From the NCBI RefSeq assembly GCF_001263395.1, contig NZ_CP011786.1, positions 868,001 through 932,000 on the forward strand: a stretch of 64,000 nucleotides of DNA, read 5' to 3'. The notes below the pieces were generated by a model that was not told the origin of the DNA, made no database searches, and saw nothing but the letters and a program-made list of their open reading frames with translations. Positions 4,718 through 63,344 of the stretch are shown one piece after another. This stretch comes from Bifidobacterium actinocoloniiforme DSM 22766 (GTDB taxonomy: Bacteria > Actinomycetota > Actinomycetes > Actinomycetales > Bifidobacteriaceae). The translations under genes were made by a program, and so were the position numbers. Each line of letters opens with the position of its first letter. Positions within the stretch are counted from its first letter, which is position 1.

Positions 4718-5745
4718 ACGGATGGACGCTGGCCCCCTCCCTGGGCTGGATCGCCGGCGGCGTGTTGACCGCCCTTTTGCTTGCGGCTGCGGTCTGCGGG
4801 CCCATACTCCGCTATAGGCAGCGCGCCAGCTACGACGCCAGCTGGCTGACTGTGGGCCGGCGCAGCCTGATCGCCCTGGTCATGGCCCTGATCGTACTGA
4901 CGCCGAGCCAGGTCCAAACGACCAGGAACCAGGCCGTTAACGCAACCGACGTCTATGTAGCGGTCGATGTGACTGGTTCAATGGCCGTCCAAGACGCCCA
5001 CTACGGCTCCCAGGACACCATCAGCCGGTTGGACGCCGCGAAGCGGGCCGTTTCCGACATCACCCAGTCCTACCCGGACGCCTCCTTCGCGGCCGTACGC
5101 TTCGGCTCCTCAGGCACCCTGGATCTGCCGCTCACCCCGGACGGCCGCGCCTTGGGCAACTGGGCCAGGAACCTGACGACCGAGCCCACCGACCTGTCGG
5201 CCGGCTCAAGCCTGGATGCGCCGCTCGACCCGCTGGTGCTGAGTCTGAAGGAGACGAAGGACCGTCACCCCGATGACAGAATCGTGCTTTACCTGATCAC
5301 CGATGGAGAGCAGACCTCCGCCAAGAGCCGACGCTCATTCTCCACGCTCCGGGCTTATTTGGATGATGCTTTCACGCTGGGAGTCGGCTCCGCACAGGGT
5401 GGCAAGGTGCCGGTCAGTTCGCGTACGCCCAGGCAGGGGGCCCAGACCGGCGCCCAGGACTGGGTCAAGGACCCAGCCACCGGGCAACCGGGCATCTCGA
5501 AGATGGATGAGGGGCAGCTCAAAGCGATGGCCGACGAGATGAGCGGTCACTACCTGCCGATTGACGCCAGCCATACGCTCAAGGACGGCCCTGCGGTCAA
5601 GACCGCTCAACGCTATCGGGTGCAGGTGACCCACGGCGAGCGAACCCGGGTCACGCCCTGCGTCTGGCCGCTGGCCCTGATTCTCCTGGCCTTGCTGGCC
5701 TGGGAGATGGTCGACTGGATCCGCACGTCGAGGAGGCTCTTATGA
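4714..5745 (+). CDS. VWA-domain membrane protein (second of two)
   Basis: Translation most likely starts at ATG 4714, which overlaps the preceding stop (ATGA). The 343-residue protein has N-terminal membrane helices (about 11-32 and 50-64), the metal-binding motif DVTGS at residues 85-89, and a C-terminal hydrophobic helix before 'DWIRTSRRLL'. Two adjacent VWA proteins downstream of MoxR and DUF58 are characteristic of BatA/BatB-like clusters. The two VWA domains are clearly divergent, so this is not a recent duplication. Confidence 0.82.
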   Translation: MNGWTLAPSLGWIAGGVLTALLLAAAVCGPILRYRQRASYDASWLTVGRRSLIALVMALIVLTPSQVQTTRNQAVNATDVYVAVDVTGSMAVQDAHYGSQDTISRLDAAKRAVSDITQSYPDASFAAVRFGSSGTLDLPLTPDGRALGNWARNLTTEPTDLSAGSSLDAPLDPLVLSLKETKDRHPDDRIVLYLITDGEQTSAKSRRSFSTLRAYLDDAFTLGVGSAQGGKVPVSSRTPRQGAQTGAQDWVKDPATGQPGISKMDEGQLKAMADEMSGHYLPIDASHTLKDGPAVKTAQRYRVQVTHGERTRVTPCVWPLALILLALLAWEMVDWIRTSRRLL

Positions 5746-59602: not shown

Positions 59603-59994
59603 GACGGCGGCGCAAGACGGGGCAAGGCGGGCGGATGATACGGAAACCGCGAAGTTGCGCCAGCAGCAATCAGACAGCCTAGCCTCCTCCTTCACTCACA
59701 TCCGAGCCGGTCTTCGCCGCCTTATGGCCTTTCCCATTCCCCCCTGGTCCATAGTCACCCGCACTAGCATGAATACACCTCCGACGTAGCCAACCGAATC
59801 CGCCTCATCCTAGGAGAGGTGCGCGCTTGCTGCTGGCGGTGCTAGACTCAGTAACTATAACATGGGGGTTCGCGGCCCTGAACTGGCTGGAGAGTTTTGT
59901 TCTGCCGCGCACCACCCGAATACCAACAACACACTGTTTTCACGGAAGAGCGCGCATCTGTGCGCTCTTCCGCCAGCCTGTTTTGGAGGGGGCA
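59603..59994 (+). promoter_or_regulatory. Non-coding 5' region of the RCC1 surface-protein gene
   Basis: No gene is evident between coaX and the RCC1 start. TAGACT (59843-59848) and an AT-rich TAACTATAAC (59852-59861) are -10 candidates. A perfect 11-bp hairpin, CGGAAGAGCGC/GCGCTCTTCCG, with an 8-nt loop (59943-59972) lies 22 nt before the true start codon and is followed, after a short gap, by GTTTT and the ribosome binding site GGAGGG. The hairpin may be an attenuator or translation control. An open frame from 59862 reads through this region but has no signal peptide and looks spurious upstream of the G-run. Confidence 0.45.
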
Positions 59995-62900
59995 ATGAGT
60001 CGTTTCCGCGCCGCCAGCGCCGCATTCGCGGCCCTGGCCATGATCCTCCTGGGGGGGGGGGTAATTCGGCGGCCCGTCCCGCCCACGCTGAACCCAACCA
60101 CCTGACCCGATCGGGAGCCCCCGCCTCGCAGACCGTGGACGGCTTCACCCTGTCCCCCACCAAAGGCCCCGCCAACCAAGACGCCATGGCCACGCTGACA
60201 CCACCAGCCCCGCCAACCAACGTGCGCTTCACCCGAATCAGCGCAGGCTGGTGGCACAGCCTGGCCATCGGCTCGGACGGCAACGCCTACGCCTGGGGAG
60301 ACAACGACTCCGGCCAGCTGGGCGACGAAACCGGTAGCGGCAGCCGCAGCGGCAAACCGGTGCGCGTGCACGCGCCAACCGGCGTGACCTTCACCCAAAT
60401 CAGCGCAGGCGACGATCACAGCCTGGCCATCGACTCGAACGGCAACACCTACGCCTGGGGATACAACGCGTTCGGCCAGCTGGGCAACGAAACCGGTAGC
60501 GACAGCAACAAACCGGTGCGCGTGCACACACCAACCGGCGTGAGCTTCACCCAAATCAGCGCAGGCCACTGGCACAGCCTGGCCATCGGCTCCGACGGCA
60601 ACACCTACGCATGGGGAAACAACGCGTTCGGCCAGCTGGGCGACGAAACCCCTAGCGACAGCAACAAACCGGTGCGCGTGCACGCGCCAACCGGCGTGAC
60701 CTTCACCCAAATCAGCGCAGGCGACAACCACAGCCTGGCCATCGGCTCCGACGGCAACACCTACGCCTGGGGGCGCAACACCTCCGGCCAGCTGGGCGAC
60801 GAAACCGGTAGCAACAGCAACAAACCGGTGCGCGTGCACACGCCAACCGGCGTGACCTTCACCCAAATCAGCGCAGGCGACGATCACAGCCTGGCCATCG
60901 GCTCCGACGGCAACACCTACGCCTGGGGAGACAACGACTCCGGCAAGCTGGGCGACGAAACCGGTAGCGACAGCAACAAACCGGTGCGCGTGCACGCGCC
61001 AACCGGCGTGACCTTCACCCAAATCAGCGCAGGAAGCTATCACAGCCTGGCCCTCGACTCGAACGGCAACGCCTACGCATGGGGATACAACGGCTACAAC
61101 CAGCTGGGCGACGAAACCGGTAGCAACAGCAACAAACCGGTGCGCGTGCACACGCCAACCGGCGTGCGCTTCACCCAAATCAGCGCAGGCCACTGGCACA
61201 GCCTGGCCATCGGATCGGACGGCAACACCTATGCATGGGGAAGCAACTACTCCAGCCAACTCGGCAACGGCAGAAGCGACTACGGCACCCACAGCAGGCC
61301 CGCGCCGGTGCTCATGCCCCGGTATGTGATCGACGGCGTCACGTTCGACGGGGCAAGCGTCACCCGGAAGACCGTCAACCCCGCCACCGGCGCCTGGGAC
61401 ATGCACGTGCCCACGCATGCCCCGGGCGCCGTCACCGTGACCGTCGCCTACCATCTCGACGGCCTCGACGTGAACGGCAACATCGCCAACCCCAGATACC
61501 AGTCCGGCACGGTCACCCTGCGTTACACGTACGCCACCCCGTACACCGTCAGCTTCCAACTGGGCGGGGCGCCGGGAACCCCGCCCGCCAGCCAGTACTC
61601 GTACCCGGACGACCCGCAGCCCATCAACTGGCCGGTCCCCGACCCGGTTTGGGCGGGCCACTGGTTCGACGGGTGGGCCAAACCCGACGGCAGCCCCTGG
61701 GACTTCACCCAACCCGTCAGAAACGACCTGACCCTGACCGCCACATGGAGGACCCCACGGTTCACCATGACCCCCACCCGGGGCCCGGACACCGGCGGCA
61801 CCACCGTCCACATCACACCACCCGACCCGCCCCAACCCCTCCGCTTCACCCAAATCAGCGCGGGCAGCTTCCACAGCCTCGCCATCGGCACCGACGGCAA
61901 CACCTACGCCTGGGGACGGAACGACTACGGCGAGCTCGGCGACGACACCCGCACCGACCGCAACACGCCCGTGCGGGTGCACACGCCAGCCGGCGTGCGG
62001 TTCACCAGCGTCAGCGCAGGCAACGAGTTCAGCCTGGCCATCGGCAGCGACGGCCACGCCTACAGCTGGGGATACAACGGCTCCGGCCAGCTCGGCAACG
62101 ACACCTCCACCTACCATAGAACACCCGAGCAGGTCCACGCGCCCACCAACGGCGACAACCCCGCCAACACATGGAAAACCATCAGCGCAGGCTACTGGCA
62201 CAGCCTGGCCATCGGCAGCGACGGCCACGCCTACAGCTGGGGAGCCAACGGCTACGGCCAGCTCGGCGACGGCAGCAACGACGTGAGCGACAGGCCCGAG
62301 CAGGTCCACGCGCCCACCAACGGCGGCAACCCCGCCAACACATGGAAAACCATCAGCGCGGGCGACCAGTTCAGCCTGGCCATCGGCAGCGACGGCCACG
62401 CCTACAGCTGGGGAGCCAACGACTACGGCCAGCTCGGCAACGGCACCAACACCAGGAGCAACAGGCCCGAGCAGGTCCACGCGCCCGACAGCGGCAACCC
62501 CGCCAACACATGGAAAACCATCAGCACAGGCGGCTCACGCAGCCTGGCCATCGGCAGCGATGACCACGCCTACAGCTGGGGAGCCAACTACTGTGGCCAG
62601 CTCGGCAACGGCAGCAGCGACGACAACCCCCACAGCACGCCCGAGCAGGTCCACGCGCCCACCAACGGCGACAACCCCGCCAACACATGGAAAACCATCA
62701 GCGCAGGCGGCGATCACAGCCTGGCCATCGGCAGCGACGGCCACGCCTACAGCTGGGGAGCCAACGACTACGGCCAGCTCGGCGACGGCAGCAACACCAG
62801 GAGCAACAGGCCCGAGCAGGTCCACGCGCCCACCAACGGCGGCAACCCCGCCAACACATGGAAAACCATCAGCGCAGGCGGCTACCACAGCCTGGCCACC

Positions 62901-63344
62901 GGCAGCGACGGCCACGCCTACAGCTGGGGATGGAACTGGCACGGCGAGCTCGGCGACGGCAGCATCTACGGCCGCAGCACGCCCGCGCTTATAGGGCACA
63001 AGATCACCGTCACCGGCGCCACCTTCGAGCCCACCAACGCCCCCACACCCACCTGGAACCCCACCACCCACACCTGGGACACCACCAGCCCAACCCACCC
63101 CGAAGGACAAGCCACCGTCACCATCCACTGGACCCTCGACGGCGTCACCCAAACCGACTACCCCATCAACCCCTACGAGTACTACCACCTCTACACCCTG
63201 CCCAAAGCAGGCGGCGCCCCCACCCAACAACTCGCGGGAGCCACCCTCCTCACCCTCACCACCCTCACCGCACTCACCCTCACCAGCCACCACATCACCC
63301 GCAAACACCACCACACCCACCAACCCACCACAACCAGCAAATAA
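59995..63344 (+). CDS. RCC1-repeat LPKAG-anchored surface protein, out of frame at a G-run (phase-OFF)
   Basis: ATG 59995 has GGAGGGGG 3-8 nt upstream and encodes a signal peptide (MSRFRAASAAFAALAMILLG). The following run of 11 G (60051-60061) puts it out of frame with the body: as sequenced, translation ends after 36 residues at 60105. With 9 or 12 G the frame continues through an AHA/E cleavage site into seven RCC1 repeats (60228-61325), an InlB-B/Listeria-Bacteroides-type module ('YTVSFQLGGAPG...FDGWAKPDG'), seven more RCC1 repeats (61845-63000) and a C-terminal sorting signal, LPKAG plus a hydrophobic stretch and basic tail. That would be about 1116 residues. Probably a phase-variable adhesin; a sequencing error is the alternative. 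Confidence 0.72.
60051..60061 (+). repeat. Run of 11 G (slippage site) in the RCC1 gene
   Basis: Eleven consecutive G follow CT in the signal-peptide coding region. Lengths of 9 or 12 keep the surface-protein frame open; 10 gives an immediate TAA; 11 (seen here) gives a stop at 60105. G-runs of this kind are known phase-switch sites in bifidobacterial pilus genes. Confidence 0.85.
60228..63000 (+). repeat. Fourteen RCC1 repeats in two blocks of seven
   Basis: Block 1 (60228-61325) has repeats starting at TTC 60228, 60390, 60546, 60702, 60858, 61014 and 61170: after the first (162 nt) the spacing is exactly 156 nt. Block 2 (61845-63000) starts at 61845 and 62001 and then uses units of about 165-174 nt ending 'PANTWKTISAG'. 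Consensus units contain 'HSLAIGSDGN' and 'GQLG'. Adjacent copies are nearly identical at DNA level. Confidence 0.9.

Follow-up and report, generated by a model that had tools for sequence, protein, structure and literature searches.

Here, we show that a run of 11 G residues (G11) parts the start codon and signal peptide of a large RCC1 surface-protein gene from its main reading frame in Bifidobacterium actinocoloniiforme DSM 22766, which was isolated from the gut of a bumblebee. We put at roughly 0.87 the probability that this run is a contingency switch for an exported, sortase-anchored protein, and bee-associated bifidobacteria more generally most likely flip surface proteins on and off by miscopying such runs. 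In the mechanism we propose, replication slippage would add or remove Gs in the tract. At lengths of 9 or 12, ribosomes starting at 59995 would read through a Sec signal peptide, likely cleaved after AHA, into the RCC1 protein, which would then be exported, with sortase attaching it to the cell wall at a predicted LPKAG motif. At 10 or 11, translation would end 0–14 codons past the tract and no surface protein would be made. Since each sister gene has its own tract, one clone could show many surface-protein combinations.

The window, a 64-kb stretch analysed here, covers positions 868001–932000 of a genome assembled as a single contig of 1,830,060 bases; its features are collected in the table. 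G11 is the sole G/C run of at least 8 bases in the window. Runs of at least 6 number 24 and runs of at least 7 number four, with none further until 11, a drop of about 4- to 5-fold per extra base that, when extrapolated, predicts about 0.01 runs of 11 or more per 64 kb (a dinucleotide shuffle overestimates long runs in this window). The preliminary description held that ATG 59995 is the only start with both a good ribosome-binding site and a signal peptide, and that it is out of frame with the RCC1 body at the G run; the coordinates and frames bear this out. As assembled, translation from 59995 yields MSRFRAASAAFAALAMILLGGGVIRRPVPPTLNPTT. The body frame is also open upstream as far as ATG 59862, and the stretch there encodes no signal peptide. 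By frame arithmetic, lengths 9 and 12 fuse the signal-peptide frame with the RCC1 frame (ON), while length 10 brings an immediate TAA and length 11, the assembled state, a stop somewhat farther on (both OFF), as had been predicted. The frame of this gene is set by the length of a repeat tract lying within it, and the tract is both far above chance length and retained at the same place in relatives, as in simple-sequence contingency loci. Upstream lies coaX (Pan_kinase in Pfam); downstream is a minus-strand ORF that by eye resembles an RluA-type pseudouridine synthase.

Table. Features of the RCC1 gene in the window (window coordinates) and, in the last six rows, other RCC1 genes of the same genome (genome coordinates).
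Feature	Position	Strand	Basis or remark
Hairpin of 13 pairs in leader, 12 nt 5′ of Shine-Dalgarno	59943–59972	+	RNA fold
Shine-Dalgarno GGAGG	59985–59989	+	sequence
Short frame as assembled: start, signal-peptide n-/h-region, stop after 36 codons (OFF product)	59995–60105	+	
G11 tract, proposed switch (9/12 ON, 10/11 OFF)	60051–60061	+	
TAA directly 3′ of tract, reached at length 10	60062–60064	+	sequence, wrong-frame stop analysis
TGA reached at length 11	60103–60105	+	sequence, wrong-frame stop analysis
RCC1 surface-protein body frame, 1,094 codons plus stop; begins with signal-peptide c-region and AHA cleavage site (predicted)	60060–63344	+	
RCC1 propeller 1, seven repeats	60228–61307	+	Pfam, predicted model
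RCC1 propeller 2, seven repeats	61842–62990	+	Pfam, predicted model
LPKAG, sortase-type motif	63198–63212	+	sequence; P, A, G columns invariant in 42 relatives
C-terminal hydrophobic helix, then basic tail	63219–63302	+	predicted model, sequence
RCC1 gene, G11, ON (downstream phase differs)	1537		tract 56 nt after ATG with Shine-Dalgarno-like site
RCC1 gene, G11, OFF	57957		tract 56 nt after ATG with Shine-Dalgarno-like site
RCC1 gene, G12, ON	1078991		tract 56 nt after ATG with Shine-Dalgarno-like site
RCC1 gene, G11, OFF	1191014		tract 56 nt after ATG with Shine-Dalgarno-like site
RCC1 gene, G13, OFF	1762038		tract 56 nt after ATG with Shine-Dalgarno-like site
Seventh RCC1 gene, G6 (GGGGGGC), fixed ON	adjoins 1762038		

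The window gene is one of six RCC1 genes in this genome that carry a G11–13 tract at the same codon, two of them ON and four OFF as assembled. Genome-wide there are 45 G runs of at least 9 bases, 22 of which reach 11; six of the 45 are preceded by CT, and these are exactly the RCC1 signal-peptide tracts. Long G runs are hard to size, and for B. breve the published tract lengths differed from deep data (PMC9187656), which raises the question of whether every cell in fact has a window tract of 9 or 12 and simply expresses the gene. We consider such an assembly error very unlikely. The published genome is an Illumina assembly from long, 300-base reads (PMC4582582), and the assembly has other family members in the ON state, so that errors would need to strike selected genes. 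Moreover, the tract and the near wrong-frame stops are retained in many species, beyond the error of one assembly, and being off by one at this single length would leave the design of the switch standing.

The RCC1 body shows no decay, as the preliminary description had noted: its 1,094 codons contain no stop. This bears on the view that a frameshift in the run silenced the gene permanently and left a decaying pseudogene. A first pass over close paralogues gave an overall dN/dS near 1, as that view would have it. However, the window gene and the fixed-ON paralogue differ at about 504 sites, where about 14 nonsense changes would be expected if the sequence were unconstrained, and frameshifts are confined to the tract. 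Relaxed constraint was dropped as the explanation of the ratio once sites were split into a conserved framework and hypervariable positions. In a comparison of five close paralogues, the framework sites of the repeats gave a pN of 0.075 and a pS of 0.214, as against 0.557 and 0.360 at five positions per repeat. Omega at framework sites is about 0.35, and 0.30 between two OFF copies. The repeat frameworks are under purifying selection, and permanent silencing is extremely unlikely. Phase variation, the reading favored in the preliminary description, fits better with paralogues that share the tract, occupy different frame states and keep undecayed bodies when OFF.

What would this switch control? 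The RCC1 repeats score 567 and 383 bits (PF00415 and PF13540; cut-offs about 22), and the body runs from fourteen such repeats with a middle beta domain to the LPKAG motif, a hydrophobic helix and a basic tail. In the predicted model (mean pLDDT 87), the repeats form two sets of seven. Its nearest solved structures are plant UVR8 (TM-score 0.94 by target length) and other RCC1-type propellers, and the protein is predicted to adopt the seven-bladed propeller fold in both sets. The repeats are near-identical except at the five hypervariable positions, namely the xx of SAGxxH and the x and xx of WGxNxxG. In the model, each repeat carries these positions in the loops that follow its second and fourth strands (hv22 lies at a strand end in 2 of 14 repeats), and a conserved turn occupies the loop after the third strand. 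From the alternation of the strands, the variable loops probably share one face of the propeller. RCC1 proteins generally vary at these positions, so the excess over synonymous change weighs more than variability itself; recombination between copies could inflate this excess. The pattern of the variable face is that of a binding scaffold, and a putative binding role may be assigned to it.

Comparison with relatives also agrees with the switch. In a coaX tree, the B. actinocoloniiforme genome clusters with genomes G001, G021, G026 and G012 (support 99/98). The first three carry the signal-peptide tract design, with the tract kept at the same signal-peptide codon and undecayed bodies in OFF genes; G012, which has RCC1 genes, contains 16 runs of at least 9 Gs, none of them in an RCC1 signal peptide. 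Among ORFs of more than 180 codons, 40 in G001 bear the tract (one is doubtful, leaving about 39), 9 of them ON and 31 OFF, as do 21 in G021, with 16 ON and 5 OFF; these counts are states of assemblies, not of populations, come from homologous and hence non-independent genes, and rest on public tract lengths that may be off by one. In G026, at least three tract genes have an open RCC1 frame behind the tract, most of them at contig ends. (This genome also has 103 G runs of at least 9 bases, the highest number among the 27 genomes.) The distance from start to tract is 56–57 nt in 63 of 68 tracts. In 27 of 33 OFF family genes, a stop codon interrupts the body frame in the interval from start codon to tract, and therefore no other start can serve there. 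Wrong-frame stops come early in these bumblebee-type genes, at medians of 2 and 10 codons versus 7 and 30 in controls; the farther of the two lies within 20 codons in 89% of genes versus 36% of controls. Frame-state differences are seen only between paralogues and between species, with one genome per species. Several G001/G021 near-orthologues, with 78–90% identity in the tract region, have lengths one G apart and opposite predicted states, which fits slippage and also a systematic difference between two assemblies. The sampled family tracts of G021 are all G10, despite six runs of at least 11 elsewhere in that assembly, and this uniformity may reflect the sequencing method.

The single gene of the preliminary description turns out to be one member of a family-wide system. 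RCC1 motifs are absent from twelve tract-bearing ORFs of G001 and five of G021. All nine of those scanned encode leucine-rich-repeat proteins, eight with Flg_new and one cut by the locus end. Hence, the switchable signal peptide is shared by two classes of repeat protein. Surface proteins that combine leucine-rich repeats with Flg_new, a sortase-type tail and the same G-tract signal peptide are found at loci L214, L221, L239, L244, L249, L253, L255 and L274.

A second design is evident in honeybee-associated bifidobacteria. Here, a G11–15 tract lies just 3′ of the signal peptide and is followed by a conserved tail, TCGTCAGACCCCTCGCGTAGCT(A/G)AGCAAA, which supplies a TAG to one of the wrong frames and a TAA or TGA to the second. 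The only clearly variable base in the first 24 of the tail is the A/G that converts TAA to TGA. Conservation is 93% over 30 nt of tail versus 66% for the 40 nt 5′ of the tract, beyond what the protein needs; the tail might also serve recombination between copies. A search with the tail pattern returned 82 copies in 11 of 27 genomes, at most 16 per genome. Both wrong-frame stops lie 6 and 7 codons 3′ of the tract in 30 of 33 genes, so that here, too, they are nearer than in controls; as assembled, 30 of the 33 are OFF and 3 are ON. DNA-level conservation of the tail can be seen, for example, at loci L047–L086 (in L048, the tract at 4724–4735 and the next 30 nt) and L327–L356. An early scan, which reached no farther than 420 nt 5′ of the first repeat match, had suggested a tract restricted to the bumblebee/carpenter-bee clade. 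That idea was rejected: a wider scan finds G11–15 in about half of the RCC1 genes of the honeybee clade, at a different position. Taken to its full extent, the proposal would be that bee-associated bifidobacteria maintain dozens of repeat-protein binders that can be switched individually, a combinatorial repertoire in which each has a hypervariable face and is tightly silenced by a G tract and stops in both wrong frames, the double stops occurring in two clades at two tract positions. We offer this tentatively, at a little less than even odds.

Previous work has shown that G tracts of the sortase-pilus genes bbr_0113 and bbr_1889 in B. breve UCC2003 switch by DNA slippage (Penno et al. 2022, PMC9187656), and that ON lengths are enriched in mice (PMC9187656). 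The statement in the preliminary description that G-run switching is established for bifidobacterial pili is thus correct. In the window gene, as in the pilus genes, a G tract separates the frame of the signal peptide from that of the sortase motif, the lengths are within 9–13, the first frame has a strong start and the second has none, and ON states would arise by tract indels. Since the anatomy is the same, slippage is the most likely mechanism here as well. Yet no dedicated sortase or pilin genes lie beside the window gene, which works like the pilus switch but belongs to no pilus cluster. B. breve has pilin clusters with their own sortase, usually with one or two tract loci per genome (PMC9187656), whereas the genes described here encode stand-alone RCC1 and leucine-rich-repeat proteins, with as many as about 40 tract genes in a genome, the tract being at a fixed codon in one clade and followed by a conserved double-stop tail in the other.

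It is also conceivable that slippage occurs at the level of RNA, or that frameshifting is programmed, so that a small, steady fraction of the product of an OFF-length gene is full length with no switching of the DNA. An 11-base run can slip during RNA synthesis too, and the wrong-frame stops are compatible with this. However, paralogues hold both in-frame and out-of-frame tracts, near-orthologue lengths differ by one, and the switching in B. breve was shown to arise from slippage of the DNA (PMC9187656). RNA structure 3′ of the tract is ordinary (z −0.9), with no sign of the fold that programmed frameshifting might use. We regard an RNA-level process as an unlikely substitute for DNA switching; alongside it, such a process may make a minor contribution.

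The RCC1 proteins themselves are not new. Passages in two papers on honeybee bifidobacteria describe RCC1 LPxTG surface proteins present in many copies per genome, shaped by duplication and divergence, and report ten RCC1 copies for B. actinocoloniiforme (PMC3447821, PMC4449606). The RCC1 domains, Flg_new domain and sortase motif mark ours as the same family; tracts, frameshifts and phase variation go unmentioned in the searched passages of both papers. Homopolymer switching is also described for surface proteins of Gardnerella, a further member of the Bifidobacteriaceae, in which numerous G/C and A/T tracts accompany LPXTG/InlB B-repeat genes and one tract varied in length between colonies (PMC11287997). 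As described in the passages seen of that paper, these tracts lie mostly upstream of genes and come without RCC1, a fixed codon position or a double-stop tail. We found no report in the open-licence literature that joins RCC1 proteins or bee bifidobacteria with phase variation. To that extent the preliminary description was right to regard an RCC1 protein under G-run control as undescribed, and joining the two known elements, bee-bifidobacterial RCC1 families and G-tract pilus switching, appears to be new. If true, the large RCC1 families of bee gut bifidobacteria, to which no use has been assigned, would form a diversified surface layer of which few members are shown at once, and G-tract switching in bifidobacteria would extend from pili to whole protein families. 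Such a harmless gut symbiont could serve as a system for phage pressure, host immunity and competition as causes of switching.

Several minor observations concern the leader and the other G runs. Across 64 family genes, leader folding is somewhat better than in controls (mean z −1.07 versus −0.30). Several sister-gene leaders that differ in sequence also fold before the Shine-Dalgarno, ending in GTTTTGGAGG; a MAFFT alignment of the leaders gave no consensus fold of a covarying hairpin, and an Rfam search with the leader returned a chance-level match only. No sigma-70-type promoter was found between 59600 and 60200 with a simple consensus. The start of the sequence record cuts through an RCC1 gene (C1:1–1621 and C1:1828985–1830060; L011, L012), and annotation has probably split or missed this gene. 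Finally, G9 and G10 runs lie about 70 nt 5′ of dehydrogenase-like ORFs (C1:424121, L032; C1:426920, L033), and many other G runs of this genome are intergenic, where they could affect promoters.
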